The notes beneath the pieces were generated by a model. The model searched no databases, was not told the origin of the DNA, and was given only the letters and a program-made list of their open reading frames with translations. Shown here piece by piece: positions 6,061 through 55,694 of a stretch of DNA of 64,000 bases. The position numbers were made by a program, and so were the translations under genes. Source of the stretch: Pseudomonadota bacterium (lineage in GTDB: Bacteria > Pseudomonadota > Gammaproteobacteria > Xanthomonadales > Rhodanobacteraceae); the NCBI GenBank assembly GCA_029561145.1, contig JAKQJM010000057.1, forward strand, positions 155,707-219,706, read 5' to 3'. Every line of letters starts with the position of its first letter. The first letter of the stretch is position 1.

Positions 6061-7782
6061 ATGCGTACTGCGCTGTTCGTGTTGATGCTTTCATGCGGCA
6101 TTGGCCATTCGATCCAGGGTTTCGCGGCGACCATCGGCGTAAGTGTCGACATCTCGTCCGATCGGCATCCGATCAGTCCGGACATCCTCGGTGTCAGCGG
6201 CGCTCCCGACCTGGATCAACTTGCCTATCCGCTGGTGCGCTGGGGTGGCAACTCGACGACCCGCTACAACTGGCAGGCCGATGTGCACAACGCGGCATCC
6301 GACTGGTTCTTCATGAATATTCCGGATGGCAACGGGACTCCGGCATCGTCCTCGACCGAGGCGCTGATCGCTGCTGTGATAGCGGCAGGCTCGCGACCGC
6401 TGGTGACCCTGAGCACGATAGGCTGGGTACCAAAGCCGGTGCAGCAGAAGCGTTGGGGATACTCGGTGCTGAAGTACGGCGTGCAGACGATGACCGAATG
6501 CAGCTACTTCGGATCGAACCCGCCGTCGTGGTGCACGGCGGACGCGGGCAACGGTCGCTGCAATCCGGCGCAGAACCAGACGATGTACTGCAATGCGGCC
6601 GGATATATCGTCGACAACGATCCACTGGATACCTCGGACGTCGCCACGCCGCAGACCGCTACGGCGTGGATGGCGCACCTGCAACAACGCTTCGGCAGCG
6701 CGAACAGCGGCGGGATTCGCTACTACGCGCTCGACAACGAGCCGATGCTGTGGAATTCGACGCATCGTGACGTGCATCCGCAGCCACTGACATACGACGA
6801 AATCTGGCAACGCACGGTCGAGTATGCAACTGCGATCAAGGTGCGCGATCCCGCGGCCAAGGTGTTCGGGCCTGTCACCTGGGGCTACTGCGACCTGTTC
6901 GGTTCGGCAGCGGACAATTGTCTGGACGGCGCCGATCGTGCAGCGCATGGCGGCACACCCTTCGTGAAGTGGTATCTGCAGCAGGTGTGCAGCTATCAGG
7001 CATCGCATGGCATCCGGCTGGTCGACTATCTCGACCTGCACTATTACCCGCAGGGTGACGGTGTCGTCGATTTCTCCGATCCGCCGAATGGATCGGAGAC
7101 GGCGGCTGCATCGGCACGTCGCCTGCGCTCGCTGAAGGAACTCTACGATCCGGACTGGGATTCGGAATCCTGGCTGTCCGATCTCGGCAACACGACGCCG
7201 TGGCACTACAGTCGCCCGCAATTGCTTCGACGCGTGCGTGCCTGGATCGACGAGTCCTGCCCCGGCACGGGCCTGGCGATCACCGAATACAACTGGGGTT
7301 CCGACAACGGAGCGAGCAGTGCGCTCGCGCAAGCCGAAGCGCTCGCGATTTTTGCGCGCGAGCGCGTCGATGTGGCGGCGCGCTGGGTGGCTCCTGCCTC
7401 GGGCTCGCTGGTCGAGCGCGCTTTCCGCCTGTTTCTCGATTTCGACGGAGCCGGCGGCAGGATCGAAGGCTTCAGTACGCGTGCGATCAGCGCCGACATC
7501 GATTCGCTGGGCGCCTACGCCGTGCATGCGCCCGGCCAGCGGATGATGCTGCTGCTGTTCAACAAGGCGACCACGACGACGACGGCGGCAATCAACCTCG
7601 GCCGTTCGTTCAATGGCGCATGGAAGCTGTATCAGTTCACCGGCACGAGCAACCTCGCGCAGGTCGGTGCCGGAACGATCAATGGCGCGGCGATCAACCT
7701 GTCCGGCTTGCCGGCTCGCTCCGCAAGCCTGCTTGTCCTGCCGGAGAGCGACGTGATCTACGCCAATGGCTTCGACTTCTGA
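6061..7782 (+). CDS. Secreted glycoside hydrolase, family 44-like
   Basis: Signal peptide from MRTALFVLML; LVRWGGNSTTRYNWQADVHNAASDWFFMN, DLHYYPQG, ITEYNW motifs; ends DVIYANGFDF. Confidence 0.85.
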   Translation: MRTALFVLMLSCGIGHSIQGFAATIGVSVDISSDRHPISPDILGVSGAPDLDQLAYPLVRWGGNSTTRYNWQADVHNAASDWFFMNIPDGNGTPASSSTEALIAAVIAAGSRPLVTLSTIGWVPKPVQQKRWGYSVLKYGVQTMTECSYFGSNPPSWCTADAGNGRCNPAQNQTMYCNAAGYIVDNDPLDTSDVATPQTATAWMAHLQQRFGSANSGGIRYYALDNEPMLWNSTHRDVHPQPLTYDEIWQRTVEYATAIKVRDPAAKVFGPVTWGYCDLFGSAADNCLDGADRAAHGGTPFVKWYLQQVCSYQASHGIRLVDYLDLHYYPQGDGVVDFSDPPNGSETAAASARRLRSLKELYDPDWDSESWLSDLGNTTPWHYSRPQLLRRVRAWIDESCPGTGLAITEYNWGSDNGASSALAQAEALAIFARERVDVAARWVAPASGSLVERAFRLFLDFDGAGGRIEGFSTRAISADIDSLGAYAVHAPGQRMMLLLFNKATTTTTAAINLGRSFNGAWKLYQFTGTSNLAQVGAGTINGAAINLSGLPARSASLLVLPESDVIYANGFDF

Positions 7783-8102
7783 TCCGCTCGGGTTCGACCG
7801 GACGTCGCTTCGTCGCTGAATTGTCGACGCCCGAACAGCGCCGCCAATGCGATCGAGCCGATGGATGAGCGCACGACCATCATCGTGATGTTCACGGTTG
7901 TCGCGACGGCGCGCGCCGCGCGTGAAATACGCAGACGACCCAGCAGGCCTCCGGCCGCAAGGCCTGCGCCGACGACCAGCGCGGGCCGCCATGCCGCGAT
8001 GTCGGCGCCGAGATCATTTTCCGATCTGCGATAGCGCCGCTGTCGAAGCAGCAGCTTGCTGGCCGCTGCGTTTGCCATTTCGCGGTCTGCGCGCAACGTC
8101 AC
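7758..8102 (-). CDS. Small protein with one hydrophobic segment, possibly YqjK-like
   Basis: ORF overlaps the upstream holin-like gene by 4 nt; central hydrophobic stretch; order DUF883 / holin-like / this gene resembles E. coli yqjD-yqjE-yqjK. Confidence 0.55.
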   Translation of the reverse strand: MTLRADREMANAAASKLLLRQRRYRRSENDLGADIAAWRPALVVGAGLAAGGLLGRLRISRAARAVATTVNITMMVVRSSIGSIALAALFGRRQFSDEATSGRTRADQKSKPLA

Positions 8103-8587
8103 GGCGTCGCCCCCGGTGACGATGGCTTGTTCGGCAGCCCGTCGCGAACAACCGGCTGCTTGCCCAGCAATGCGCGCGTGCGGGGCAGGGACATGTCACG
8201 CCAGCAGCGGCGCATCGAGCGGACGACGAGGACCGCCCCTGCCAGATTGCCAAGCGCTACGGCACCGATTCCGACAAAGAGATTCCCGCTCAGCTGATAG
8301 ATGGCTGCGGCAATCGATGCGGTGGCTGCCAGCCAGGCGCCAGCGCCGAGAAAGATCAATGCAAAACCCAGCCACAGGATCGTCATGGCGCTGCTGCGTG
8401 CGAGCTTGAGCTCGGCACGCAGCAAAGCAAGGGATGCTTCGGCGACATGCAGGGCGCCGCGCAACACATCCTGCGCCGCTTCGACCAGGGACGGCTCGGA
8501 CGGTCCGTTGCTCGCCGCCTTCGATTCCTCGTCAACGGTCACGTTGGCCGGCTCAGCGACGACGTAGCAGGCGGCTCGCAACCACAC
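8099..8587 (-). CDS. Phage holin-superfamily / YqjE-like membrane protein
   Basis: Two TM segments (MTILWLGFALIFLGAGAWLAA, LFVGIGAVALGNLAGAVLVV) after an amphipathic N-terminus. Confidence 0.7.
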   Translation of the reverse strand: MWLRAACYVVAEPANVTVDEESKAASNGPSEPSLVEAAQDVLRGALHVAEASLALLRAELKLARSSAMTILWLGFALIFLGAGAWLAATASIAAAIYQLSGNLFVGIGAVALGNLAGAVLVVRSMRRCWRDMSLPRTRALLGKQPVVRDGLPNKPSSPGATP

Positions 8588-8861
8588 CCACGGCTACGGC
8601 GATGCCAAAGGCAGCCAGTGGATGCGCGCGGATCTGCTCGGCAGCAACGTCGCCAAGGCGTTTGGCGCCGTCACCGAAACGCTCGCCGGCTGCGGAGAGT
8701 TCATCCTGCAGTGCCGCTCCGTTGCTGCGCAGGCGCTCACCGAATCGCGAAGCGGATCGTGCTGCTTCATCGAGGCCATCGCTGATCTTTCCGGCGACCT
8801 TGCCGGCCGCTTCGGTTGCGTCGTCGATCGAATTTCGAACGTCTCGGGATGCGTTGCTCAT
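8553..8861 (-). CDS. DUF883 / YqjD-ElaB-like membrane-anchored protein
   Basis: Coiled-coil N-terminus and C-terminal IRAHPLAAFGIAVAVGVVASRLLRRR. Confidence 0.8.
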   Translation of the reverse strand: MSNASRDVRNSIDDATEAAGKVAGKISDGLDEAARSASRFGERLRSNGAALQDELSAAGERFGDGAKRLGDVAAEQIRAHPLAAFGIAVAVGVVASRLLRRR

Positions 8862-9481
8862 GGTCTGATCCTCTCTGCAATGGATTGCTGCTGGCAAGTA
8901 CGCGCAACAGCGCGAGGAGACTCGCGTTGAAGATGCTGGCATGCCAAGCCTGAAGCCCGCATGGATGGCAGCGCGTCCGACCGGCTGCGGAATTGCGCAC
9001 CCGGTCGGCACGAGCCAGTCAGCGGACGCCAGAATGTTGAGTTGTGACAGCCGTTGTCGGTTCGATCAAGCCGGGGCGTTCGTGTTCCCTGCCAGGCGCG
9101 GCATTCGCCGGATCGGGATGAATACGCATCCAATACTCCTTGCAACGGAACCGGCAACGCAAGCCGATCGACCGCGCAGGGTTCGGCTTGTGCGTGGACG
9201 GCTGCGGGATGTGACACGTGTCGCGACAATGCGTTATCGTTGGGCGGTCCGTTCGCTGAGGGATGCTGACGGCAGGGGATTGCAATGGCCTTGCTTGCCA
9301 AGAGGTCGAGGGAACGAAGAACGCACGCGTTTTTGCAGCGCCTGTCATCCGCCGGACTGCCGCCGATACATTGGCAGGTTTCATGCATGCCAGTTCTCGT
9401 GATGTTCCATCGATTCCGCTGCGGACACGTCACTCGTGAAAGTGATTGTCCCGTCCAGTCAATACGGAGCGCCCCGCTGCA

Positions 9482-10489
9482 ATGAATACTTCCCGATTTC
9501 CCGAGCGTTTCGCACGTGGTTCAGCCGCGCCCAAGATCCTTGTTGGCGTGCTCGTGCTCGCTGCTGCTGCGGGCGGCGCCTGGTGGTTCCTGAACAAGCC
9601 AGGTGCGGTGGCGCCGACCGCGACATCGCCGATTGCGAGCACCGCCCAGGCGCCTGGTGCCGAGGCTGCGGTCGCAGCCGTTTCGCCGGCGGTCGAGGAG
9701 CTGACCATCGATCAACTGTATCGGGAAGCGCGCAAGGCCATGTCGGAACAGCGCCTGGTGGCGCCTGCCGGCAACAACGCCCTTGAGTTCTATCTGGGGA
9801 TCCTCGGCAAGGATCCGACCAACTCCGGCGCGCTCGACGCGCTGCGCGAACTGTTTCCGTTCGCGAGTGGTACCGCTGAACAGGAAATCAATCAAGGCAA
9901 TCTCGACGAGGCGGGCCGGATCATCGCGTCGCTGGCCAAGTCCGATCCCAGCAACTACACATTGACCATTCTTCGCAGCAAGCTCGAAGCGAAGAAAAAG
10001 CAGGAAGAACTGCTCGCTGCACAGGCGGCGGCTGCCGCTGCCGCACCGACGCCGGTGCCGAAGCCGGCGGTCGAGATCGGTTCGAACGAAGCGACGGCAA
10101 CCTCGGCACCCGCCACGACTGCCGGGACCGCGCCAGCCGCCGCTGCCCCTCCGGCCGCCGTAGCCAGTCAGCCGGCTCCAGCTCCGGCACCCGCACCCGC
10201 TGCGCCGCAGGGCGAGTCGCGTGATGTCCAGGGAGTGACTCCGATAGCGCCGACCTATCCGGCGCAGGCGGCGCGAAACAAGCAGGAAGGCTGGGTCGAG
10301 GTCGAGTTCACGGTGACCGCCGATGGCAGGGTCGAGAACGCGAGAGTGTCCGCGTCCGAACCGCAGCGCGTGTTCGATCGTGAAGCGATCCGCTCGATCG
10401 AGCGGACCAAGTTCAATCCGCGCCTCGAAAACGGTGTTCCGGTCAACGCGACGGTGCGTCGACGCATCGAGTTCAAGCTCGGACGCTGA
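9482..10489 (+). CDS. TonB-family protein (energy transducer TonB-like C-terminus)
   Basis: N-terminal TM, Ala/Pro-rich linker, C-terminal PTYPAQAARNKQEGWVEVEFTVTADGRVENARV...FNPRLENGVPVNATVRRRIEFKL. Confidence 0.85.
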   Translation: MNTSRFPERFARGSAAPKILVGVLVLAAAAGGAWWFLNKPGAVAPTATSPIASTAQAPGAEAAVAAVSPAVEELTIDQLYREARKAMSEQRLVAPAGNNALEFYLGILGKDPTNSGALDALRELFPFASGTAEQEINQGNLDEAGRIIASLAKSDPSNYTLTILRSKLEAKKKQEELLAAQAAAAAAAPTPVPKPAVEIGSNEATATSAPATTAGTAPAAAAPPAAVASQPAPAPAPAPAAPQGESRDVQGVTPIAPTYPAQAARNKQEGWVEVEFTVTADGRVENARVSASEPQRVFDREAIRSIERTKFNPRLENGVPVNATVRRRIEFKLGR

Positions 10490-10521
10490 TTGGCAACAAC
10501 GGTGGCGCCGCGCGTTTTCGC

Positions 10522-11226
10522 TCAGCCGAGCAGACAGCGGCGCATTTCGATCAGCATTTCGTGATCGGGGCTGTGCTCCGACTGCTCGCGCGCGAGATGA
10601 AGCAGGCGCTGCGCAGCGACCTCATGGAATTCGCCCGCGAGACTGGTCGACAACTGGCCAGCCATGTCCGTCAGCACGAGCAGTCCGAGTCCACGCAGTA
10701 CGGTGATGCCGTGCGTCGAATCCCGGTTCAACTGGGCGATCGCTTCGTTGCGCGCCTGCCATGAACGCAGTGGAAAACGGAGCGCGCTCCACGGCAGCCA
10801 GGACGCGCGCACGCGATGCAGGACGTCGCGGCGGAACAGGCTTTCGAGCAGGTGCAGGCTGATCGGATTGAGCCGCGCGACCAGCAGTTCGATGGCCGCG
10901 TTGAGTGGCAGGCCGTTGACGGGTCCGGCGAGTACCTGAGCTGCTGCCGCAACCTGCGGATGCGTCGTGGGCAACATGGCCTCGATCGCGACGTGGCCGC
11001 GCTTGAAGCGCAGGCGGCGCTGTTCGGCCAGGTCAAGAATCAATGCTGCGGCCGCCAGCGTGTTGATATCGGCGTGACTTCGAGTGGTCTCGAAATCGCC
11101 GCGCTCGGGGTTGATGCACAACAACATCAATTGCTCGGCTATCAGCACGCTGGGCTCCTCGCTTGGGTGCCGGGCCGATTCGGGCTGCCAGGCCACGACC
11201 GTCGGCCGGGCGCCATGGTACGACAT
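10522..11226 (-). CDS. GPP34 (GOLPH3/Vps74-like) family protein
   Basis: LIAEQLMLLCINPERGDFE...LAAAALILDLAEQRRLRFKRGHV resembles bacterial GPP34 proteins. Confidence 0.6.
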   Translation of the reverse strand: MSYHGARPTVVAWQPESARHPSEEPSVLIAEQLMLLCINPERGDFETTRSHADINTLAAAALILDLAEQRRLRFKRGHVAIEAMLPTTHPQVAAAAQVLAGPVNGLPLNAAIELLVARLNPISLHLLESLFRRDVLHRVRASWLPWSALRFPLRSWQARNEAIAQLNRDSTHGITVLRGLGLLVLTDMAGQLSTSLAGEFHEVAAQRLLHLAREQSEHSPDHEMLIEMRRCLLG

Positions 11227-11287
11227 GGCGCGGGTCCGGGCGTGTACCGAAAGTCGCTTCGGGTCGATCCGCGATCGACCATTGGCC

Positions 11288-30774: not shown

Positions 30775-32337
30775 CTACTCAAGCTCGAAATCGTCGCGGA
30801 AAATCAAATCTCCCAATGAGAACTGGCTGGTGTGTCCTTGCGCGTCGGTGGCGGTCGCGACCAGCGGCAGCCCGCCGCCTGGAGGCAAGGGCATAACGAC
30901 GGTTCTCGACGTTTGCGCTGCCGCTGCCGGATATTCGTCGCTGCCAAGATAGTCGTCGCCTTCCTCTCCGTCGCTGCTGCGGTAGAAGTCCGCGCGCAGC
31001 GGGTAGTCCGCATTGGCGACCGCCGTGTCGATCCGGTAGGTGATCTCAAGCTCCGTTCCGCTTGACGACAAGACAGCGGACTCGATGACGGGCGTATTCT
31101 GGAATCGATTGGGGCCCTCGTCGACGTCGTTCGGGTCGTTGGGCATCGAGGTGCTGGCGCGCCGTAGTCGGATGCCGGAACCCGTGTTGTAAGCCAGCGA
31201 ATTGCCAAGGATTTCGAGCGAACCGATGACCGTGCCTGCGGTGACGTCCCAGCCAATGCCGCCGCCGCGATTGAATGCGATCAGGTTGCCTGCGCCAGGT
31301 GCGCTGCCGCCGACAACAACCAAACCGAGCGTAAGCCCACTTACATCGATGCCACTCGCCGCTGCGCCTGAGCAACCGCCTATCGGGCATCCGCTGCCGT
31401 TCGGCAGTGCATGGACGCCGTTGGCATCGGTACCAATGTAGTTGCCCTGGATCAGCAGCCCATCGACACAGCCGGCCTGCACCGCAAAGGTGCAAGCAAT
31501 GCGAATTGCGGAGTTGAACCCGGCGGCAAACACGTTGCGCGACGCCGTTGCGGTGCCGCCAACACGCAGGTCTTGCAAGGTCGCCGTGCTTGCCGCACGC
31601 ACATGCAGCGCATAGCCCCCGCCGCCACTGCCGTTGCCTATCGCGGCGATGCCGTTTGCCGAGGTGCCAAACAGGTTGCCTTCAACGATCGAGCCACTCG
31701 CCGAGGCGGTGTGCAGCTGGATTGCATCATTGGAGTGGCCCGCAAAAAGGTTGCGCTGCATGGGAGTTTGTCCACCGACGCGAACACGCCCTTGGCTCAC
31801 GAACAATCCTCTTTGCCCGGCGGGTGCATAGGCGGCATTACCACTCGCATCGGTGCCGAAAATGCAGCCTTCAATGCTTGCGACAGTGCTTGTTCCAGCG
31901 ACCGAAACGCCCGCCGAGTTGCCGAAGCCGGAAATCACCAGCCCGCGCAAGGTGACTTCACCCGCAGCGATGCGGATCGCGCTCGGTGCGGACGAGCTCG
32001 CTGTCGGCACCAGCATGACCTTCAGCAAGCCATTCAAGCCACCTTGCTCGGGGGTCTGTGAATTTGCGATTGCGCCCGCTTGGCTCAGGCCGTCGATCAT
32101 CAGCGGACCGACTGAATCCAGCGCCGAGGTCTGCAACGCGATGACATGCGGGCCGCTGCCGGGAATCGCGAAGGTGACCACATCTGCACCGGGCGCTGCG
32201 TTTGCGTCGAGCACGGCCTGGCGCAACGAGCCGATACCGCTGTTGGCGGTATTGGTCACGCTGAAAGTCGCGGCCGCAGCGGGGGACGCCGCCAGCCAAA
32301 CCGCGATGCAGCAGGGTATTGCTATGCATCGGATCAT
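30775..32337 (-). CDS. Exported right-handed parallel beta-helix protein
   Basis: Signal peptide; VTNTANSGIGSLRQAVLDANAAPG domain; NxIGT beta-helix repeats; ends GDLIFRDDFELE. Confidence 0.82.
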   Translation of the reverse strand: MIRCIAIPCCIAVWLAASPAAAATFSVTNTANSGIGSLRQAVLDANAAPGADVVTFAIPGSGPHVIALQTSALDSVGPLMIDGLSQAGAIANSQTPEQGGLNGLLKVMLVPTASSSAPSAIRIAAGEVTLRGLVISGFGNSAGVSVAGTSTVASIEGCIFGTDASGNAAYAPAGQRGLFVSQGRVRVGGQTPMQRNLFAGHSNDAIQLHTASASGSIVEGNLFGTSANGIAAIGNGSGGGGYALHVRAASTATLQDLRVGGTATASRNVFAAGFNSAIRIACTFAVQAGCVDGLLIQGNYIGTDANGVHALPNGSGCPIGGCSGAAASGIDVSGLTLGLVVVGGSAPGAGNLIAFNRGGGIGWDVTAGTVIGSLEILGNSLAYNTGSGIRLRRASTSMPNDPNDVDEGPNRFQNTPVIESAVLSSSGTELEITYRIDTAVANADYPLRADFYRSSDGEEGDDYLGSDEYPAAAAQTSRTVVMPLPPGGGLPLVATATDAQGHTSQFSLGDLIFRDDFELE

Positions 32338-32518: not shown

Positions 32519-35062
32519 ATGAGAACGACTGTGTCCATCCTGCTATGTGTGTTGGTGACGATCATCGGCCGGCCAGCGACCGCTGCCATCGATGCGTGTG
32601 TGTCGAGCGCTGCCGAACTCTCGCAGCAGTTCCAGTTGGCCATCGTCTCGAGCCAGGACATCACGCTCAAGGTCGTGCGCGGCAGCTACGACATCACCGG
32701 TACCCAGCTGGTCTCATCAGGCATGCAGCGCGTGCCCGCAGTCTCGTTGATCGGGGGTTACGCCCCAGGCTGCGCCTCACGCGTGATTGACCCCGCCAAC
32801 ACCCTATTCACCGCCAGCGGAACCGGCCACATCTATTGGCGCACGTTCGGTAGCCGCATCTCGATCGAGGGCATCACCTTCGAAGGCAATGGCTCAGGCC
32901 TGCATCTGGCCAATTATCCTTTCATCGCGGACGCGGTCAGCTTGATCCTGCGGCGGAACGTGTTTCGCGGCTTCATCGGAGACGTCGACGAAGATTCTCG
33001 CGTTGAGCTGTATACCTATCTGTCGGAATCCTCGGGCAATCGAGTGATCGTCGAGAACAACCTGTTCCATGCCAATTCCGCTCGCACGATTCTAGGCATC
33101 ACTGGCGACGGCGAAGCTGATTCGTTCGTGCCGCTCGATACCCGCGTGGTCAACAATACCATCGCCAACAACCTGGCCAACACCGGACTGTGCGTGATGT
33201 CTGCATCGATCCCGGTACTGGCCAACAACATCGTGCGCGACAACGGCGCCGATATTTCCACTTGGTGCGGCTTTGGGCCGGTCGTCATCGCGGCGCCTGC
33301 AAGCTCGTACAACAACAGCTTTCAGACCCGCAACACGCCGCTGCCGATGTTCGAGGTCGGCACCTCGACTGCGGACCCGGCCTTTATTGATCCGGGGGTG
33401 AACTTCCGCTTGCGCAATGATTCGCCGGCCCTCAACACCGGCAGCACATCTGCCCTGATCAGCCTGCCTGCAACTGACATCGAAGGAAACGTGCGCTTCC
33501 AGGGTTCCGCACCGGATCGCGGTGCCTACGAAAGCGCAAACACGGGCAGCTTCGTGCAGACCGTTACCAATGTGAACGACAATGGGTCCGGTTCACTGCG
33601 TCAGGCGATCCTGGGCGCGAACGGAACACCTGGATTGAACCTCATCTTTTTCGACATCCCCGGCACCTGCCCGCGCACGATCAACCTCAGCTCGGCCTTG
33701 CCCGTTGTTACCGAAAGTCTGCGCATTGATGCCGCCACCCAGCCGGGATCGGCAAGCAACACATCGGCGTCCGCAGACAATGCGACGCGCTGCGTGATTG
33801 TCCGGCCCGCAACGGTGAACGCGATCGGGCGTGGCCTTGCCACCAACACGGTGTCCGGCAGCGGTGTACAGCTGGGCATCAACGGCATCGCCATGGGTGG
33901 TTTCAGCGACGCGGCGATCTACCTCCTTGGCGGTGGCGCGCACTACGTGCAGGGCAGCCAGTTCGGTGGCAGCGTGGGGGGCGTCGCACTGCCCGCCAGT
34001 GCGACCCATGTGCTGGTCGGGGCCAGTGCGGGCGCGCGCGTTGGTGGGCCCAACGATTCGCAACGCAACATCATAGGCGGGGCCACGGTGGCCGGCGTAT
34101 CGCTTGAACTGGCAAGCAATAGCAGCATCGAGAACAATCTGATCGGTGTGGACGTGAACGGCCGCTTCGCCAGCCCGAATGCAATCGGCGTACGCCTCAA
34201 TGCGGCCAGCGGAAACCGCATCATCGACAACGTGATCTCGGGCAACGGCAACGGCATAGTTCTGCTTGAGCCCGGGGGCTTCAACTCCAGAAACAACACG
34301 ATCAATGGCAATCGCATCGGACTGCGTGCAGTGCCCCTGATCACCCAGGGCGGGGTCTCGGACTATCGTCTCGGCAACGATTTCAACGGCGTTCTGATTT
34401 ACGGCAGTGACAACGTTCTTGGTGCCTGCCGTCACATCGAAGCAGGGCAACTCGTGTTCGGAGGAGCCGAGAACACGATTGCCTACAACGGAACCTCCAC
34501 CGGCGCGGCAGGCATCAACGTGCGCAGCGGTCGCGGGGTATGCATCGCTGGAAATCGCGTGTACGGCAACAATGGATCGAGCGGGCAGCAGGTTGACATC
34601 GGCGCTCTGGGTATCGACCCGGTCGACAACGACAGTGCCGCCGGCAGCGATGCGCTCAGCAACCGAGGGCTCAACGCGCCTACGCTGCTTGCGGCTGGCG
34701 GTTCGGACACGCGCGGCAACCTGCGCGTGCGCCTGCAATCGCGCAACGGCATCTATCGCGTGTTGGCCTATTCGCGCGCCGGTGGGTGTAGTGGCACGCA
34801 GGGCGAGGCCGATGTCGACCATACCGATCCCTACGTTGCTTACAGCATTTCCAACGCGAGTGCCGGAAACGACGGCTTCGTGGAATTGGACCTTCCGGTG
34901 GCCACCGTTGGATCGCAGAGTACGCTGGTCGGTCGCGGTTTCGTCACGCAGGTGCAGCGCATACCCAATCCGGTCAGCGAACCGCCCGATACGTCGGAGC
35001 TTGGCGGTTGTAGGGTGTACGCGTTCGACGACGTCATCTTTGCCGACGGGTTTGATCCGTAG
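32519..35062 (+). CDS. Exported right-handed parallel beta-helix protein
   Basis: Signal peptide MRTTVSILLCVLVTIIGRPATA; VTNVNDNGSGSLRQAILGANGTPG domain; beta-helix turns; ends DDVIFADGFDP. Confidence 0.82.
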   Translation: MRTTVSILLCVLVTIIGRPATAAIDACVSSAAELSQQFQLAIVSSQDITLKVVRGSYDITGTQLVSSGMQRVPAVSLIGGYAPGCASRVIDPANTLFTASGTGHIYWRTFGSRISIEGITFEGNGSGLHLANYPFIADAVSLILRRNVFRGFIGDVDEDSRVELYTYLSESSGNRVIVENNLFHANSARTILGITGDGEADSFVPLDTRVVNNTIANNLANTGLCVMSASIPVLANNIVRDNGADISTWCGFGPVVIAAPASSYNNSFQTRNTPLPMFEVGTSTADPAFIDPGVNFRLRNDSPALNTGSTSALISLPATDIEGNVRFQGSAPDRGAYESANTGSFVQTVTNVNDNGSGSLRQAILGANGTPGLNLIFFDIPGTCPRTINLSSALPVVTESLRIDAATQPGSASNTSASADNATRCVIVRPATVNAIGRGLATNTVSGSGVQLGINGIAMGGFSDAAIYLLGGGAHYVQGSQFGGSVGGVALPASATHVLVGASAGARVGGPNDSQRNIIGGATVAGVSLELASNSSIENNLIGVDVNGRFASPNAIGVRLNAASGNRIIDNVISGNGNGIVLLEPGGFNSRNNTINGNRIGLRAVPLITQGGVSDYRLGNDFNGVLIYGSDNVLGACRHIEAGQLVFGGAENTIAYNGTSTGAAGINVRSGRGVCIAGNRVYGNNGSSGQQVDIGALGIDPVDNDSAAGSDALSNRGLNAPTLLAAGGSDTRGNLRVRLQSRNGIYRVLAYSRAGGCSGTQGEADVDHTDPYVAYSISNASAGNDGFVELDLPVATVGSQSTLVGRGFVTQVQRIPNPVSEPPDTSELGGCRVYAFDDVIFADGFDP

Positions 35063-35171: not shown

Positions 35172-37949
35172 CTATTTCGGTCGCATCGATTCCATTGCGG
35201 CGAGGCGAGGATCGGCACGGGCCGAGCGCTCGAAGAATGGAATCGAGGTGGCGGCCGCCGCCGCTGCTGCATTGGCATCGCCATTTGCGCCGCGCTTGCG
35301 CAGATCGAGCGCGAGCTCTGCGTTGGCGTACGCGAGCCCTACTTCGCCCAGCACGCCGTCTGCACGAGCCAGCGCGAGCGCTTCCTCGTGCAGCGTGATC
35401 GCGCGATCAAGCGAGCCAGCCTCACGCTCGATGGCACCCATCAACAGACCCGCTTCGAATTGCTCGACACCACGCGCCCCTTCGCTCGCGCCGAGCGCGG
35501 TGAACGTGGCGCGCAAGGCTTCCATCGAGTTCCCTCGCGGGTCGGAGCGTCGGAGCGCTTCGGCATGCAGAAGTTTTGCCCACAACGCATGCCTGGACAT
35601 CGCGCTGGCACCCGGATAGGCCTCAAGCGATAGCCGCAGCGCATCCACTGCTTCCGCAGTCTGGCCACGTTCAAGCAGGATGCGACCGAGATTTCGCTGC
35701 GCCGCACCGCGCATGGTCATGGTCGGTTCGCCAGTAAGCGCAATGCGCGCGTGATGCTCTGCCGCGTCCAGGCGGTATTCGTACAGGGCAACACGCGCCA
35801 GCACGCTGTTTGCGGCTGGACGCAACGAGGCCTGTGCCGCTGCATTGTCAGCGCTGCGTTCCAGCACGAGTTCGGCGTTCGTGCGTGCCTCATCAAGGCG
35901 GCCTTGTTCGAGGTGGATGGCAGCCAGCGCATGCAGGACGGTTAGCGTGCGCAGGTGACGTGCACCCAGTAGCTCACTGAGCAGGGCTTGCGAGCGGCGC
36001 AGAGCCTGCTCCGCATCCGCGTAGCGGCCGAGCGCGATCAGCGATGTGGACAGGTTCATCAGATCCATCGCGTAATCGGGGTCACGTTCTCCGGACAGTG
36101 CGCGTCGTTCGCTGAGGATTTGTTCCCGCAATTGCAATGCCGAAGTGAGGTCGCCACGCATATTGGCATTGCGCGCCAGTCCAGTGGCTACGCTGATCAG
36201 CTCGCGTCTGCGGTCATCGGCGGCGGCGCGGTAGATCGCTTGCGCCTGCATCAGATGAGTGCGCGCGTCGTCAGATTTGCCGAGGTCATTTTCAGCGTAG
36301 CCAATATAGAGCAGCGCTTTGGCATGCAAGATCGGATCGGCGGCAGGAATGCGGGCGATCGAATCGAGCGCGGTGCGATAGGCGGCGTGCGCCGAGTTGC
36401 GGCGTCCGGCGACGCGCAGTCCGCTGCCGATTTCCAGCAGCAATTCAGCCTGCACTTCCGGTTCGTCGGCCAACTCGTTGATCAGGCGATCTGGAGTGGA
36501 TTCGAGCAGCTCGACGACCGTCTTCTCGCCATGATTCGCCGTGCTGAACGCGTCGGCGCGATCGAACATCGACACTAGAAACTGCTTGGAGAGTTCGGCA
36601 CGTCGGGCCGATGCCCGTGCGGCTTCGGCGTTGGCGATGGCAGCGCGGCGTTGCACGATGGATACAGACAATGCAGCAAGCACGACGGCGAGCGCCACGC
36701 CGCCGAGCACCACCGCGAGGCGATTGCGCGCAACAAACTTGGCAACACGATAGCCGAGCGTTGCTGGTCGTGCGCGAATTGGTCGCCGCTCGAGCCAACT
36801 GCACAGGTCCTCCGCGAGAGCGGCGGCGCTTGGATAGCGGGCCTCCGGCGAGCTGCGCAGCGCCTGCAACACGATCAAATCGAGTTCGCGATCGATACCG
36901 GGCAATACCTGTCCTTGAGCCTCGGCACCTCGGTGCCACATGCGCCCCAGCGTGCTCGGAGCCTCGGTCGCATCGCGTGACACATCGGCAACCACCTGGG
37001 ACAAACTCTGGTGCCCGCGCCCGTGCGGCAGCACTCCCGACAGCAGTTCGTAGAGAAGCAGGCCGATGGCGTAGACGTCGGTAGCGATCGCGATCGGCTC
37101 GCCGAGCAGTTGCTCGGGTGATGCGTAGGCCGGCGACATCACGCGTGATCCGGTTTCCGTCGCACCCACGTTCGATGATTCATCCAGAACCCGCGCGATT
37201 CCAAAATCAAGAACCTTGAGGACACCTTCATCCGTCACCAACGTGTTTGCGGGTTTGAGGTCACGGTGAACTACTAGATGACGGTGTGCGTAGTCCACCG
37301 CGGAACACAACGCAATGACCAGTCGCACGCGACTGCGCACGTCAAGCTGATGGGTGCGCGCGAACTGGTCGATGGGAACTCCGCGAATGCACTCCATCGC
37401 GAAGTAGGGCAGGCCAGCCGCAGTCATGCCGCCGTCCAGCAAGCGGGCGATTCCGGGATGTTCGAGACGGGCAAGGATCTGCCGTTCGCGCTGAAAGCGG
37501 TGCAGCACGCCATCGGAGTCCATGCCACGCTTGAGCAGTTTGACGGCGACCTGTTGCTCGAATTGCCCGTCGTTGCGCGAAGCCAGCCATACTTCGCCCA
37601 TGCCGCCACGCCCCAGCATTTCCTTGAGGCGCCATGGTCCGATCATGTCGTTGGCCGAGTGGGCTTCCTTCTCCATGCGACCGGATGCAAGCTGGTGCAG
37701 CGCGGCGGGTGCCAGCGCCGCGAGTCCGGCTTCGAGCACGCCATGTTCGCGCGCATCGGCGGCAAGCAGTTTGGCTACGCGCGCGGCGAGCGCCGGCTCG
37801 CGGGAGTGCAAATCATGCAGGTGTTGCCGGCGCGCATCCGGATCGAGGTCAGCAAACTGCTCGAAACACGCGATGGCTCGCTGTAGCAGCTTGGCATCCT
37901 CAATCGCGTCAGGCTCGCTCATCGTTGAGGATGTCGTAGAGGAATGCAC
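35172..37949 (-). CDS. Serine/threonine protein kinase with C-terminal TPR region
   Basis: MLGRGGMGEVWLASRNDGQFEQQVAVKLLKRG, VHRDLKPANTLV, DFGIARVL; TM LAVVLGGVALAVVLAALSVSIV; long helical repeats. Start may be the internal Met at 37922. Confidence 0.94.
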   Translation of the reverse strand: MHSSTTSSTMSEPDAIEDAKLLQRAIACFEQFADLDPDARRQHLHDLHSREPALAARVAKLLAADAREHGVLEAGLAALAPAALHQLASGRMEKEAHSANDMIGPWRLKEMLGRGGMGEVWLASRNDGQFEQQVAVKLLKRGMDSDGVLHRFQRERQILARLEHPGIARLLDGGMTAAGLPYFAMECIRGVPIDQFARTHQLDVRSRVRLVIALCSAVDYAHRHLVVHRDLKPANTLVTDEGVLKVLDFGIARVLDESSNVGATETGSRVMSPAYASPEQLLGEPIAIATDVYAIGLLLYELLSGVLPHGRGHQSLSQVVADVSRDATEAPSTLGRMWHRGAEAQGQVLPGIDRELDLIVLQALRSSPEARYPSAAALAEDLCSWLERRPIRARPATLGYRVAKFVARNRLAVVLGGVALAVVLAALSVSIVQRRAAIANAEAARASARRAELSKQFLVSMFDRADAFSTANHGEKTVVELLESTPDRLINELADEPEVQAELLLEIGSGLRVAGRRNSAHAAYRTALDSIARIPAADPILHAKALLYIGYAENDLGKSDDARTHLMQAQAIYRAAADDRRRELISVATGLARNANMRGDLTSALQLREQILSERRALSGERDPDYAMDLMNLSTSLIALGRYADAEQALRRSQALLSELLGARHLRTLTVLHALAAIHLEQGRLDEARTNAELVLERSADNAAAQASLRPAANSVLARVALYEYRLDAAEHHARIALTGEPTMTMRGAAQRNLGRILLERGQTAEAVDALRLSLEAYPGASAMSRHALWAKLLHAEALRRSDPRGNSMEALRATFTALGASEGARGVEQFEAGLLMGAIEREAGSLDRAITLHEEALALARADGVLGEVGLAYANAELALDLRKRGANGDANAAAAAAATSIPFFERSARADPRLAAMESMRPK

Positions 37950-49218: not shown

Positions 49219-49346
49219 GCGGGCGGCTCCGAATCCTGGCGATCATCCTGCCCGCGCTGCCGGGTTTGCTCAAGCCCCGCCCGCGATGCGCCCGACGATG
49301 AAATCTTGCGTATGCTCGCGTGGGTCGGTGCAGAGGACGATCACGC

Positions 49347-50285
49347 ATGAACCACGGCAGCCACGACTACGTCGATGATCCGCGCAATCGCGACATCCTG
49401 ATCTACGTCAACGGGACCCTGAAACGGCGCGAGGAAGCGACCGTATCGGTGTTCGACTCCGGCTTCATCCTTGGTGATGGGGTATGGGAAGGGCTGCGCA
49501 TCGTCGATGGCCAGCCCGCGTTCCTCGACGCGCATCTGGATCGCCTCTACGAAGGCGCGAAGGCGATCGCGATGGACATCGGCCTCGGTCGCGATGCACT
49601 CGCTGCGGCGATCGAGGCGACACTCGCGGCCAATGGCATGCGCGACGGCGTGCATGTGCGGCTCATGGTCACGCGCGGGCTCAAGCGCACGCCGTACCAG
49701 GATCCGCGCGTCGTCATCGGGCCGGCGACCATCGTCATCATTCCCGAGTACAAGAATCCGCTGCCCGAAACACTGATCCGCGGGCTCAAGCTGTTCACCG
49801 TGCACGTGCGCCGTGGCTATCCCGACGTGCAGGACCAGAAGCTCAACAGCCACAGCAAGCTCAATTGCGTGACCGCCTGCATCCAGGCCTACACGGCCGG
49901 CGCGGACGAAGGCCTGATGCTCGATCCACACGGTTTCGTCGCGACCTGCAATTCCACGCATTTCTTCATCGTGCGCAAGGGTGAAGTCTGGACCTCGACC
50001 GGACAGTACTGTCTCGGCGGCATCACGCGCGCGAACGTGCTCACGGTCTGCCGTGAAGCGGGCATTCCCGCGATCGAGAAATCCTTCAGCCTGACCGATG
50101 TCTACGGTGCCGATGAAGCCTTCGTCACCGGAACCTTCGCCGGGGTCGTCCCGGTGCGCGAGATCGACGGGCGTGTCCTCAACGAGGGAACACGCGGACC
50201 GATGGTCGAGCGCATCCAGTCGCTGTACAAGGCGCATGTGGCGCGCGATATCGCGGCGCGCAAGACACGGGTGGCCACGACGTGA
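49347..50285 (+). CDS. Class IV PLP aminotransferase (branched-chain/D-amino acid type)
   Basis: ILIYVNGTLKRREEATVSVFDSGFILGDGVWEGLRIVDGQPAFLDAHLDRL; KLNSHSKLNCVTACI; LMLDPHGFVATCNSTHFFI. Confidence 0.93.
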   Translation: MNHGSHDYVDDPRNRDILIYVNGTLKRREEATVSVFDSGFILGDGVWEGLRIVDGQPAFLDAHLDRLYEGAKAIAMDIGLGRDALAAAIEATLAANGMRDGVHVRLMVTRGLKRTPYQDPRVVIGPATIVIIPEYKNPLPETLIRGLKLFTVHVRRGYPDVQDQKLNSHSKLNCVTACIQAYTAGADEGLMLDPHGFVATCNSTHFFIVRKGEVWTSTGQYCLGGITRANVLTVCREAGIPAIEKSFSLTDVYGADEAFVTGTFAGVVPVREIDGRVLNEGTRGPMVERIQSLYKAHVARDIAARKTRVATT

Positions 50286-51025
50286 AGCCTGGCGACGGAT
50301 CGCTGCGCATCGCCATGTGGTCAGGCCCGCGCAATCTTTCGACGGCGATGATGCGCGCCTGGGAGAACCGCGGGGATTGCGCGGTCAGCGATGAACCGTT
50401 CTATGCGCACTACCTCGCCGAAACCGGACTCGACCATCCGGCGCGCGACGAGGTGATCGCTGCCGGCGAGACCGACTGGCGCAAGGTCGCGCTGTCGATG
50501 GTCGGCGAGGTTCCCGGTGGCCAGCCCGTGTGGTACCAGAAGCACATGTGCCATCACATGCTCGCCCACATCGACCACGACTGGATGGATGGGCTGGCCC
50601 ATGCGTTCCTGATCCGGGATCCGTCCGAGGTCGTGGCCTCGTATCTGCGCTCGCGTTCGACAGTCACCGAGGACGACATCGGATTGCCGCAGGAAGTACG
50701 CCTGTTCGATGAGGTCTGCGATCGTTTTGGCCATGCACCTCCGGTGATCGACGCCGATGATTTCCTGCTCGATCCCGAGGCGCATCTGCGTGCGTTGTGT
50801 GCGCATTTCGGCATTCCATTTCGTGCCGGGATGTTGAGCTGGCCAGTCGGGCCGCGCGACAGTGACGGCATCTGGGCGCCGTACTGGTATGCCGCGGTGT
50901 GGAATTCGACAGGCTTCGAACCTCCCCATCCGCGCGAAATCCATCTCGAAGGCGACGCCGCGCGCGTCGCCGATGCGACCCGCCCGCTGTACGAGAAGCT
51001 GTACCGCCATCGCCTGCGCGCGTGA
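50282..51025 (+). CDS. Sulfotransferase-like protein
   Basis: GTG start overlapping the aminotransferase stop (GTGA); MWSGPRNLSTAMMRAWENRGDCAVSDEPFYAHYL and FLIRDPSEVVASYL resemble 5'-PSB and 3'-PB regions. Confidence 0.72.
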   Translation: MKPGDGSLRIAMWSGPRNLSTAMMRAWENRGDCAVSDEPFYAHYLAETGLDHPARDEVIAAGETDWRKVALSMVGEVPGGQPVWYQKHMCHHMLAHIDHDWMDGLAHAFLIRDPSEVVASYLRSRSTVTEDDIGLPQEVRLFDEVCDRFGHAPPVIDADDFLLDPEAHLRALCAHFGIPFRAGMLSWPVGPRDSDGIWAPYWYAAVWNSTGFEPPHPREIHLEGDAARVADATRPLYEKLYRHRLRA

Positions 51026-51143
51026 TGGCGCAGGGCGCAGCCGGGCGCGTTGGCGATCGCGTCGGGCAGCGATGGCGTGACGAACGCGCTGCCTTGCCGC
51101 TGGCGGCACAATATCCGGCGCGCTCATGCGTCTGCAGCGTCGT

Positions 51144-51722
51144 ATGCAGGCAATCACGGACATCACAGTCGCCATGGCCAGGCAGGACCGGTCGATAGCC
51201 GACACGTTCGAGCGCGAACACGGGCGCCTGCGCGGCTTCATTCGCCGTTACGTCCCGAACCTGGCCGATGCGGAAGACATCTTGCAGGAAGTGTTCTTCG
51301 AATTCGTCGAGGCGGCACGCCTGCTCAAGCCGATCGAACAGGCCGGTGCCTGGCTGTTCCGGGTTGCGCGCAACCGGATCAGCGATCGCTTCCGCAGGCG
51401 ACGATTCGAACCCGGCGATCCGCCCGGCCTCGCTGCGCTCGATGCCGACGCGCTTTCGCTCATCGAGCTGCTGCCTGATCCCGATGCCTCGCCCGAGGCG
51501 GCGTTCGCGCGCTTCTTCCTGCTCGACGAACTCGACGCTGCGCTCGACGAGTTGCCCGAAGAGCAGCGCAGCGTGTTCGTCGCGCACGAGCTCGAGGGTC
51601 GAAGTTTCAAGGCGCTGTCCGCCGAGAGCGGAATCGGCATCAACACGTTGCTGTCACGCAAGCGCTATGCGGTGCTGTTCCTGCGCCGGCGCCTGCAATC
51701 GATCCATGAGGAAATCCAGTGA
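51144..51722 (+). CDS. ECF-type RNA polymerase sigma factor
   Basis: NLADAEDILQEVFFEFVEAARLLKPIEQAGAWLFRVARNRISDRFRRRR; FKALSAESGIGINTLLSRKRYAVLFLRRRL. Confidence 0.92.
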   Translation: MQAITDITVAMARQDRSIADTFEREHGRLRGFIRRYVPNLADAEDILQEVFFEFVEAARLLKPIEQAGAWLFRVARNRISDRFRRRRFEPGDPPGLAALDADALSLIELLPDPDASPEAAFARFFLLDELDAALDELPEEQRSVFVAHELEGRSFKALSAESGIGINTLLSRKRYAVLFLRRRLQSIHEEIQ

Positions 51723-52093
51723 TGCTCAAGGAGCACGACATGAACATGAAGAAATATCGTACGCGGCGGTTCGTGAAATTCGCGATCCTCGCCATCCTCG
51801 TGATTCCACTGTTCGGCTTTATCGTGATGGGACTGTGGAACTGGCTGATGCCCGATCTGTTCGGCTTGCCGCGCATCGGCTTCTGGCAGGCCTGGGGCTT
51901 GTTCGTGCTCGGCAAGATCCTGTTCGGCAGCTTCCGCGGCCAACCCGGCGGGCATCACCGCGCGCGCATGGGCGAGCGTTGGGCGCAGATGTCCGACGAC
52001 GAACGTGAAGCGTTTCGACGCGGCATCTGGCGACATCGCGAACACCCGCACGCCGAAGGCAGCGACACACATGACGATGCTGCGAGGTCCTGA
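51722..52093 (+). CDS. Small membrane protein coupled to the sigma factor gene
   Basis: Start overlaps the sigma-factor stop; TM FVKFAILAILVIPLFGFIVMGLW; charged C-terminus. Confidence 0.65.
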   Translation: MLKEHDMNMKKYRTRRFVKFAILAILVIPLFGFIVMGLWNWLMPDLFGLPRIGFWQAWGLFVLGKILFGSFRGQPGGHHRARMGERWAQMSDDEREAFRRGIWRHREHPHAEGSDTHDDAARS

Positions 52094-52200
52094 CCGCCAG
52101 CCTGTCGCCATCGTCGCTGCACCGACGCGCGGTCCCCTGATCAACCTTGAAAACCGGTCCGGATGAAACCGCGGCGACCAGCAGTTACGGGCGACGCGCT

Positions 52201-53013
52201 TCACAGTGAAAGCGGCAATTCCAGATGCGCGGCATAGATCATGTCGCGATGCTCGATCAGGGTGGCATCGAGCGCGTCCCGGGTCGGTGCATCGAGCGAC
52301 TCGAATGCCGCGCGTATCGCCGGATCCATCGCACATTGCACGGACGGCAGCGGACAGAACATCCCGATTGCCGCAGCGCTGTAGATATCGAGCGCGCTGA
52401 GCTGGCTGCCAATGTAATAGCGGCTTCCGGCATCGCGAGCTTCGCGCAAGCGATTTGCCAGCATGGCCAGCAATTCGACGACCCTTGGCCCATGGGAGTC
52501 TCCGGCTTCCGGGTCATAGCCGTATTTGGCGGCCAGGTACTTCGCGATCCGTTCCGGAAATCCACCGTCGCCGCGCAGGCCCGCGTGCACGAGCTGCAGG
52601 CGACGCGACCAGCCCAGTCCTCCCACGCCGCAGATGTCGTCGGAAAGCGCGAGAACGACGTCGCGCGCGCGCTCGTCGAGCGGAAGCAGGGCGGGTGCAG
52701 CCGCCAATCGCTCGGCCCGCAACAGGATGTCCTTCCATCCCGACAGCGGCGCTTCGTCGTCGACCACGAGCACCGGCCCGCTGCGCTGTCCGGCCCAGTC
52801 CTTCAGGGCATCGCTGTCATGGACCAGACGCACGGCCGCCCAATCGAGGTGCTTGACGTGGAGGATGCCCTTGGCGGCTTCGCCCCAAAGGCTCGGTACA
52901 TTACCGACAACGACCATGCGCAATCCGCTCCGCGCGATCGCCTCGTCCACACTCACGTATTCAAACGCCATCGGAATTCCTGCGGAAAACGAATCGAAGG
53001 ATGGAAGCGCCAT
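52201..53013 (-). CDS. Glutathione S-transferase-like protein
   Basis: Thioredoxin-like N-terminus and SRYYIGSQLSALDIYSAAAIGMF typical of GST C-terminal domains. Confidence 0.65.
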   Translation of the reverse strand: MALPSFDSFSAGIPMAFEYVSVDEAIARSGLRMVVVGNVPSLWGEAAKGILHVKHLDWAAVRLVHDSDALKDWAGQRSGPVLVVDDEAPLSGWKDILLRAERLAAAPALLPLDERARDVVLALSDDICGVGGLGWSRRLQLVHAGLRGDGGFPERIAKYLAAKYGYDPEAGDSHGPRVVELLAMLANRLREARDAGSRYYIGSQLSALDIYSAAAIGMFCPLPSVQCAMDPAIRAAFESLDAPTRDALDATLIEHRDMIYAAHLELPLSL

Positions 53014-53270
53014 CGAAGATGACCCAGGCGACCAACAGGGTAGCCCGGCCCTGCATCCACTGACAGCGGCAGGCAGTCATCGACATCGCGGGCAGGGCGA
53101 CCCCGCAACGGCGGGCGGGATCGTGCAAGACGCAATTCAGCGAGGTGCGCAAGGTCTTCCCGGAATCTGCACGGGTTCTGCACAGTCGGGCGCTAGAGTG
53201 CGATCGTGCAAACCGTGTCGCGCAGTGCCGATCCGGCTCTCTCCCGCTCTCGATTCGATGGAATGCCACG

Positions 53271-54101
53271 ATGAGCGTCAAACCGCCGCTTCCGAACCTG
53301 TCGCATTCACACGCTTCGCTAGATGAAACCCTGCAGGTGCTCGGCCAGCGTCGCCGGTTGCTCAAGCTGCTCGGCGGCCTCGGTGCCGTGTCACTGCTGC
53401 CGCAAGGCGCGATCGCCTGCTCGCTGATTCCAGCGGAAACGGCTGGTCCCTATCCCGGTGACGGCACGAACGGTCCCAATGTGCTCATCCAGAGCGGCAT
53501 CGTCAGATCGGACATCCGCTCGAGTTTTGGCAGTTCCGGGACTGCCGTGGCGCCCGGCACGCCGCTCACGGTCACCTTGCAGTTCCTCAGCACGGTGGCG
53601 GGCTGTGGCCCGATCGAAGGACTCGCCGTCTATCTCTGGCATTGCAATGCCTCGGGCGGCTATTCGATGTATTCGTCGGGCGTTACCGCGCAGAACTACC
53701 TGCGCGGCGTACAGGCGACCGACGCGAACGGCCGCTGCACGTTCACGTCGATCTTTCCGGGCTGCTATGCGGGACGCTGGCCGCACATCCATTTCGAGGT
53801 GTTCGCCTCGCTGCTGGATGCAACCACCGGCAGCAATGCCGGGCGCGTTTCCCAGCTCGCGTTGCCGGAATCGGTGTCGCGCCAGGTCTACGCGCAGACC
53901 TCGCTGTATCCGAACGGCACCAGCAACCTCAACCCGCTCACCCTGGATTCCGACAACGTGTTCGGCAACGACGGCGGCATTCACCAGTTGGCCACCGTCA
54001 GCGGCGACAACGCAAGCGGTTACACGTCGTTCCTCGAAGTCGGGGTCGCGGTCGACGCGACCTCGTCCGACCTCCTCTTCGCCGACGACTTCGAGACCTG
54101 A
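53271..54101 (+). CDS. Exported intradiol ring-cleavage dioxygenase-like protein
   Basis: RRRLLKLLGGLGAVSLLPQ Tat-like signal; AETAGPYPGDG, VYLWHCNASGGYSMYSSG, FTSIFPGCYAGRWPHIHFEVF; ends DLLFADDFET. Confidence 0.83.
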   Translation: MSVKPPLPNLSHSHASLDETLQVLGQRRRLLKLLGGLGAVSLLPQGAIACSLIPAETAGPYPGDGTNGPNVLIQSGIVRSDIRSSFGSSGTAVAPGTPLTVTLQFLSTVAGCGPIEGLAVYLWHCNASGGYSMYSSGVTAQNYLRGVQATDANGRCTFTSIFPGCYAGRWPHIHFEVFASLLDATTGSNAGRVSQLALPESVSRQVYAQTSLYPNGTSNLNPLTLDSDNVFGNDGGIHQLATVSGDNASGYTSFLEVGVAVDATSSDLLFADDFET

Positions 54102-54320
54102 TCGCCGATCGCCGACAGCAATGGAATGGACGGCTGGATGCGTCGTCGCACGGCGCCGGGCCGAGTGCCACGCAGGACAGCGGGCGACATCAAACGCCTT
54201 TGGCCGAATGTTCCTGCCCGTTGGCAAGCACGCGCCGGCGTGCAGGGCGGGCCTTGCGGAAGCGAAACGGATCGGCGACTGGAGGTGTCGGAACACGTTT
54301 GATGCTGCCGGAAGCCGCCG

Positions 54321-55694
54321 TTGGCTGCGTCGCTACGTCGCATGCGGTATGCGGTGCCGCTGAGGCAAACCACCCAGAACGCGCTTGACCGCGCGAAAGT
54401 GACGTGGCCTATTGCGCGCATGTTCGCATGCGATTCCATTCATACGGCGGTTAGCTGGTCGACTCCGCGCGAATCGATCCGCGCAACGGGACTTCGGCGT
54501 TTGTTGCCGTTGTTCATCGCCGGCTCGGCCTGTACCGGCGTTTACGCGCAGGCACTGTTGCAGGCCCCGACCGAAAGCGCGAGCGAACTGGGTTACGCCG
54601 TGGCACTCGATGGCCAGCGGATCGTCACTGGTGCTCCAGGTGCACAGGCTCTTGCCGGACGTGTCTACACCTATGATTGCGTCGGCCAGAACTGCTCGGC
54701 CCCGACGGCGTTGGCGCCGGGCGACCTTGTTGCCGGCGATCGGTTCGGCGCGGCGGTCTCGGTGTCCGCGGCCACGCTTGCGATCGGCGCGCCGGGAAAG
54801 GGCGCGGTCTATGTCTACCTGCATGACGGAATCGGCTGGCTGCAGCAGCAGAAGCTCGTCGCAACCCCGGCGTTGCCGAACGAACTGTTCGGTGCCTCGG
54901 TCGCGCTGCGCGGCAATCGGCTCGCGATCGGCGCGCCCGGCGCGAACAGCGCTGCCGGGGCGATCTACGTCTTCGAGCGTTCGGGCAGCGTGTGGACCCA
55001 GAGTAGCCGGCTGCAGGCGGGCGACGCCGACCCCGGCGATGCGTTGGGCAGCAGCATCGCGCTCGATTCCGACACGATACTGGCCGGTGCGCCGTACTGG
55101 GCTGCATTGCATCCCGGGGCCTTCAGCCAGGGTGCCGCCTACGTTTTCGTGTTTGCCTCATCGATCTGGAACGAGCAGGCTCGGCTGTTGCCGGTACCGA
55201 CGATCAATGCGCAGGTGTTTGGCAAGTCAGTCAGCCTTTCCGGAAACCGGGCACTGGTCGGAGCGCCATTGGCCAATCTCCGCGCTGGCAGTGCGTACGT
55301 TTTTGAACGCGGCGGTTCGACCTGGACCCAGCAACAGCAGCTCACCCTGGCGGGTGGATTGCCAGGCGACCGTTTCGGCTGGTCGGTTGCGCTCGATGCC
55401 GACCAACTGCTGATCGGAGCGCCATTTGCCCTGGCGGGTTGCGGAGGCAGCACGCGCTTCGTGTTGACCGGCGGCACATGGAATCCGGTCGCACTGCCAT
55501 CGCTGGCGCGACCTGCTCCGGGCGGGCTGGTCGGCTGGTCGATAGCGGCCGAGGGGCAACGCTGGCTGGTCGGAACGCCTGGCTACAGCGGCGCACCCAG
55601 TCACGTGGGTGCCGCCTACTGGCGAGCCGCCAGCGATGCCATCTTCAACGACAGCTTCGATGATGCGAGTGCCGCCACTTGCGTCGTGGATTGA
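54321..55694 (+). CDS. FG-GAP repeat (integrin-like) exported protein; start uncertain
   Basis: Repeats such as ELGYAVALDGQRIVTGAPG, LFGASVALRGNRLAIGAPGAN, VFGKSVSLSGNRALVGAPLAN; ends DAIFNDSFDDASAATCVVD. Confidence 0.85.
   Translation: MAASLRRMRYAVPLRQTTQNALDRAKVTWPIARMFACDSIHTAVSWSTPRESIRATGLRRLLPLFIAGSACTGVYAQALLQAPTESASELGYAVALDGQRIVTGAPGAQALAGRVYTYDCVGQNCSAPTALAPGDLVAGDRFGAAVSVSAATLAIGAPGKGAVYVYLHDGIGWLQQQKLVATPALPNELFGASVALRGNRLAIGAPGANSAAGAIYVFERSGSVWTQSSRLQAGDADPGDALGSSIALDSDTILAGAPYWAALHPGAFSQGAAYVFVFASSIWNEQARLLPVPTINAQVFGKSVSLSGNRALVGAPLANLRAGSAYVFERGGSTWTQQQQLTLAGGLPGDRFGWSVALDADQLLIGAPFALAGCGGSTRFVLTGGTWNPVALPSLARPAPGGLVGWSIAAEGQRWLVGTPGYSGAPSHVGAAYWRAASDAIFNDSFDDASAATCVVD

Follow-up and report, generated by a model that had tools for sequence, protein, structure and literature searches.

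We report that five exported proteins encoded in a 64,000-nucleotide stretch of DNA from an environmental bacterium of the Pseudomonadota (the window, C141:155707-219706 of genome G000) end in nearly the same short peptide, and that this peptide, a nine-residue tail with the consensus D-x-phi-F-x-[DN]-G-F-[ED], is an order-wide feature of the Lysobacterales. The tail is almost certainly a functional tag of exported proteins, and we put the probability at roughly 55% that it acts as a linear secretion or sorting signal read by a second type II secretion system, termed T2SS-B, with which its co-occurrence is strong but imperfect. How type II secretion systems (T2SS) choose their cargo is a decades-old puzzle, their substrates having no linear sequence in common, and to our knowledge nobody has found a readable address label for this pathway. 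A whole order now seems to write such an address on the protein end. If true, this would be the first sequence-readable secretion code of a T2SS, the secretomes of hundreds of species would become predictable from sequence, the receptor could be searched for with a nine-residue peptide and chosen enzymes could be exported with the help of the short tag. With this finding, the open question of how T2SS select their cargo can be addressed by short, direct experiments.

All five tails proposed in the initial annotation were confirmed at their positions by pattern matching in six frames, the ends differing there only by the inclusion of stop codons. The tail DVIYANGFDF (7750-7779, plus strand) closes an exported GH44 family protein (6061..7782, plus strand; Pfam PF12891, E 9e-69) with the Sec-type signal peptide MRTALFVLMLSCG..., and DLIFRDDFELE (30778-30810, minus strand) closes exported beta-helix protein 1 (30775..32337, minus strand), which has a weak Beta_helix match and the Sec-type signal peptide MIRCIAIPCCIAVWLAASPAAAA. 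DVIFADGFDP (35030-35059, plus strand) belongs to exported beta-helix protein 2, a choice-of-anchor Q, NosD-like protein (32519..35062, plus strand; NF041518, E 1e-9; PF05048; Sec-type signal peptide MRTTVSILLCVLVTIIGRPATAA), and DLLFADDFET (54069-54098, plus strand) to an intradiol dioxygenase-like protein with a Tat-type signal (RRRLLKLLGG...; 53271..54101, plus strand; PF00775, E 1e-8; RRRLLKLLGGLGAVSLLPQGAIA). The fifth tail, DAIFNDSFDDASAATCVVD (55635-55691, plus strand), consists of DAIFNDSFD and 10 further residues and lies on an exported FG-GAP repeat protein with an approximate start at ~54492 (54492..55694, plus strand; PF14312, E 7e-57; Sec-type signal RRLLPLFIAGSACTGVYAQ). Four Sec-type signals and one Tat-type signal, the latter on the dioxygenase, together with the unrelated GH44, beta-helix, NosD-like/choice-of-anchor Q, intradiol dioxygenase and FG-GAP domains, bear out the earlier description of near-identical tails on exported carriers of differing fold. 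The regular expression D.[ILVM][FYLI].[DNSG].[FY][DE] has exactly five matches in the six frames of the 64 kb, all of them these tails, and a stop codon follows 1-10 residues past each of them. A looser pattern adds a single open reading frame (ORF), which lacks coding bias, and the strict DNA form of the pattern had 0 matches in 100 shuffles.

The scan was then extended to the whole of G000 with a relaxed DNA pattern encoding phi-[FY]-x-[DN]-x-F-[DE], the same pattern reversed serving as control. The pattern matched 80 times and the reversed control 0 times; 59 of the 80 matches lie at most 14 residues from a stop codon and none between 14 and 48, as compared with an expectation of 3.5 near a stop under uniform placement and a maximum of 13 in 20,000 simulations. 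Signal peptides were commoner on tailed proteins (23/49) than on other ORFs of the same loci (22/189; P 2e-7) by a strict home-made rule, which replaced a permissive rule that gave little contrast. Both the genome scan and the signal-peptide enrichment, the latter a check proposed in the initial annotation, speak in favor of a tag. The cargo is diverse: 58 tailed proteins match 44 Pfam families, including subtilases, M12B and M28 peptidases, endonuclease I, sugar dehydrogenase, sortilin-type propellers, MAM-like domains and FG-GAP, to which NCBIfam adds choice-of-anchor J and Q as well as the ExeM/NucH nuclease and the LapA-type aminopeptidase, these additions all counting as relatives of known secreted proteins.

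At the DNA level, the flanks of the tails are 27-30% identical in pairwise comparison, all 46 compared tail 27-mers are distinct, and third positions vary. Because of the dissimilar flanks, the distinct 27-mers and the variable third positions we conclude that the tail is selected as a peptide. The idea that it arose by chance, or as a DNA repeat translated at gene ends, has no point in its support and is refuted by the missing matches of the reversed pattern, by the codon diversity and by the non-similar flanks; the latter two also rule out a mobile element as the source of the tails.

The nature of the tail was further assessed in 16 sugar-dehydrogenase homologues that were picked by domain and not by motif. 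Each consists of the propeller, a linker of variable length and then the tail at the chain end. The second Phe of the tail is the sole invariant residue past the propeller; 15 of the 16 homologues retain the first Phe as well, and E, D or Q closes the motif. In the AlphaFold model the predicted local distance difference test (pLDDT) score falls below 50 at tail residues 432-436 and exceeds 90 over most of the sugar-dehydrogenase propeller. No conservation was seen upstream of the first Asp in an alignment set that was partly pattern-selected, nor was a conserved cleavage site found upstream of the tail. The variable linker, the invariant Phe and the low pLDDT show that the tail behaves as an appended, portable linear segment. 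This portability, the exported cargo and the many folds support the original suggestion of a sorting, secretion or surface tag.

The description as a C-terminal motif holds as the rule for most copies. It is not absolute, since a minority of convincing copies stands at the mature N-terminus or internally, and the recogniser thus seems not to need a free C-terminus. The motif directly follows the signal peptide in a DUF1800-like protein (L188:4432), an esterase-like protein (L175:7571) and at L316, and it lies between two enzyme domains at L137:1520 and in a subtilase loop at L175:567; the domain names for the L188, L175 and L137 copies come from reading the sequence and not from tool results. 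Separately, two neighbouring ORFs (L009, G015:C1) share their last 30 residues, tail included, the result of a recent duplication of the C-terminal region.

As far as searches of Pfam, NCBIfam and the literature show, the tail is undescribed. Neither Pfam (E <=1) nor NCBIfam (E <=10) placed a tail or CTERM model on the five window proteins, in agreement with the initial annotation, to which no named family was known, and no tail model stood among the top 25 families listed for the 58 tailed proteins, where very short models could be missed; in the literature we found no description of the motif strings or of a T2SS C-terminal motif matching the tail. In being a short C-terminal homology on many unrelated exported proteins the tail resembles PEP-CTERM/exosortase, GlyGly-CTERM/rhombosortase, MYXO-CTERM and LPXTG, and some cargo domains are the same, namely choice-of-anchor J/Q and matches to sortase-dependent peptidase models. 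Unlike these signals, however, it has no transmembrane (TM) helix, basic cluster, Gly-Gly, Cys, PEP or LPXTG signature, comprises nine residues only and also occurs internally or at the mature N-terminus. The absence of a TM helix plus basic cluster, claimed for the window, held for all 59 tails of G000 (motif plus 0-14 residues). The sole internal copy with a following TM+RRR end is L006 (G000:C141:148797), an exception in which 94 further residues come after the motif and finish with a TM helix and RFRRR, like two fused anchoring signals. The C-terminal domain of type IX secretion, a folded beta-sandwich domain of ~70-100 residues of Bacteroidota, offers another parallel, as it (por secretion) likewise serves as an address at the C-terminus by which proteins folded in the periplasm pass the outer membrane. 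In contrast to that domain, the tail is a disordered 9-mer of Gammaproteobacteria with variable upstream sequence.

The distribution of the tail was analyzed in 151 Lysobacterales genomes and in a wider sample of 399 genomes across the phylum. Within the order, 81/151 genomes match the strict pattern and 84/151 the Gly-containing pattern, with per-genome maxima of 59 and 110 matches, respectively, as compared with 0-2 for the reversed control. Tail-bearing genomes include Marinicella, Dokdonella, Tahibacter, Rudaea, Pseudofulvimonas and Wenzhouxiangella; the tail was not found in Xanthomonas, nor in 20 genomes sampled from the family to which the window belongs. The phylum sample gave no convincing tail outside the order: single or double matches in 13 sampled genomes looked chance-like where the loci were examined, being internal, antisense or located in ORFs that were short or acidic. 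Position 7 shows dialects, with Arg in genus g23 of family f10 (23/30 matches in G009) and also in G058 of the same family, and with Ser frequent in family f7 (G006, G017).

Tail-positive members of family f1 carry, besides the common GspD scoring ~470-500 bits, an extra GspD of 560-583 bits, and the 20 tail-negative members have the common type only. The loci show two systems, T2SS-A, an Xps-like operon, and T2SS-B, a second, classical type. T2SS-B is laid out as gspC-gspD-gspE, followed in several genomes by gspF and ftsE-ftsX, with a separate gspG-H-I-J-K locus. Its GspC scores above the TIGR01713 cut-off (103.4 vs 101.6), matches PF11356 and PDZ, has the HR and PDZ regions and resembles EpsC, OutC and PulC; its structural matches are the EpsC PDZ domain (best) and GspC-HR. 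GspD-B (TIGR02517, 573 bits) resembles solved T2SS secretins, and the GspE ATPase matches TIGR02533 at 680 bits. Of the pseudopilins, GspG, GspH, GspJ and GspK were found in G000 and GspG-K (GspJ weak) together with GspF in Marinicella; in L297 an ORF was recognised as a GspI-like prepilin by reading only. GspF-B was not located in G000. T2SS-B shares a GspC carrying HR and PDZ, a GspD secretin, a GspE ATPase, GspF and pseudopilins of its own with the Eps/Out/Xcp/Lsp class.

T2SS-B was called by a GspD-B query over the order, fragments in draft genomes being counted, and was present in 84/151 genomes. At least 2 tails occur in 78 of the 84 genomes with T2SS-B and in 5 of the 67 lacking it (Fisher P 4e-29, with no correction for phylogeny). 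A co-occurring secretion gene was one of the checks put forward at the outset, and T2SS-B is a candidate. The genus-level table of T2SS-B and tails reads 31/2/1/30. Inside families, genomes with and without T2SS-B have tails in 5/5 vs 0/20 cases in f1, 1/1 vs 0/23 in f2 and 23/23 vs 0/1 in f9, where the complete outlier genome has neither a GspD of any kind nor tails. This suggests that the tail vanished together with T2SS-B in f1, f2 and the f9 outlier. GspG of T2SS-B shows the same pattern as GspD-B. The Xps-type GspD/T2SS, in contrast, is nearly universal in the order and does not track the tail, and genus g26 of f2 has a second T2SS, presumably the Xanthomonas Xcs system, with a GspD ~45% identical over half its length and no tails. 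In one Marinicella genome a tailed protein is encoded directly downstream of the T2SS-B locus (L214, G078).

The same family distribution bears on the idea that periplasmic quality control or assembly recognises the tail, be it the PDZ proteases DegP or Prc or a BAM-like beta-signal. The motif is aromatic and C-terminal, and PDZ proteases do bind C-terminal peptides. DegP, Prc and BAM-type systems are, however, near-universal, whereas only one of the sampled f2 genomes has tails and 20 f1 genomes have none, and no outer-membrane barrel family stands among the cargo families listed. We therefore consider this explanation highly improbable.

A reader other than T2SS-B that disappeared from the same clades, such as a protease, a ligase or a sortase-like enzyme working on a soluble tail, would make the correlation a by-product of shared ancestry. 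GspD-B is less identical between more distant taxa, a trend that suggests vertical inheritance with several losses and agrees with this explanation; co-loss of unrelated genes is possible, and the DUF6689 gene has a partly similar profile. Yet 0/8 arbitrary G000 genes share the full presence/absence profile over 16 genomes, T2SS is a mechanistically apt partner, and the tail lacks a conserved upstream cleavage site, as noted above. On balance we regard another reading system as improbable. The DUF6689 gene itself (window 61497-62396) is found in 3/5 genomes positive for tail and T2SS-B and in 0/11 negative ones (16 genomes, rows listed) and may be another member of the tail/T2SS-B gene set.

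Several observations weigh against T2SS-B as the reader. In G063 (97% complete) about 8 true C-terminal tails occur with neither GspD-B nor GspG-B, G097 and G122 have ~3 pattern matches each without GspD-B, and G048 and G059, both incomplete genomes, combine 15-20 tails with a lack of GspD-B. Conversely, G082 and G127 carry T2SS-B and no tails were found, nor were variant tails seen in the few loci examined. G063, G097, G122, G082 and G127 all belong to family f8, where the link between tail and T2SS-B is weak. Neither GspL nor GspM of T2SS-B turned up in the loci read. The correlation is based on just a handful of independent losses, the actual partner could be some other gene co-lost with T2SS-B, and the set of controls is small. 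Several f8 genomes have two Xps-like GspD each, and some, G063 among them, have a few tails without T2SS-B; f8 genomes with tails but without T2SS-B may use another exporter.

Such genomes also count toward the main rival explanation, namely that the tail serves to retain or attach proteins at the surface, bound for instance by an outer-membrane or exopolysaccharide receptor after secretion, T2SS-B being merely the usual exporter or co-inherited. The retention of tails without T2SS-B in genomes such as G063, the richness of the cargo in choice-of-anchor J and Q, which elsewhere precede surface-anchoring tags, and the internal and N-terminal motif copies, which would suit a binding tag, all agree with it. 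On the other hand, neither a receptor nor a processing gene was found beside tailed genes, the co-loss with T2SS-B needs additional explanation, and soluble enzymes such as the nuclease, the proteases and the dehydrogenase are numerous among the cargoes. Specifically, 63 named-genome loci of <=8 kb each had no recurrent non-tailed neighbour resembling a processing enzyme, a gene whose co-occurrence the initial annotation had proposed to test. We thus consider a surface tag doubtful, although it is the strongest competitor of a signal read by T2SS-B.

If T2SS-B reads the tail, which we take to be the most economical account, the cargo would cross the inner membrane via Sec or Tat and then fold in the periplasm, where the disordered tail D-x-phi-F-x-[DN]-G-F-[ED] would mark it for T2SS-B, and the system (gspC-D-E-F and gspG-H-I-J-K) would carry the marked cargo through the outer membrane. 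Our direct observations cover the tag, where it sits, its cargo, the export signals, its confinement to the order and its strong co-occurrence with T2SS-B; reading by T2SS-B, the subunit involved and the final place of the cargo, surface or medium, are inferred. Tailed proteins have the N-terminal Sec/Tat signal of T2SS substrates, as seen on the window proteins and in the genome-wide enrichment. T2SS substrates fold in the periplasm and contact GspC and GspD, and exposed loops act as signals in Dickeya and Pectobacterium pectate lyases, the substrates being described as without a common linear sequence (PMC7949064). In this respect the dozens of unrelated tailed proteins, which have one linear sequence in common, differ from the substrates described so far. 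The tail could first be read by the PDZ domain that GspC of T2SS-B carries, or by the periplasmic gate of GspC and GspD. In Vibrio cholerae the EpsC PDZ domain is needed for secretion of VesB (PMC12369372). That the PDZ domain of GspC does the reading is an additional guess, and we consider it rather unlikely. Because some motif copies are internal or at the mature N-terminus, a free C-terminus appears dispensable, which fits canonical PDZ binding poorly and likewise counts against the proposed signal. It is possible, and we propose it tentatively, that a transferable nine-residue signal alone routes folded, unrelated periplasmic proteins into the T2SS, the clade-specific position-7 dialects (Gly, Arg, Ser) having co-evolved with the recognising subunit.

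The window also encodes, at 35172-37949 and 57203-60550, two large fusions of a Ser/Thr protein kinase with tetratricopeptide repeats.

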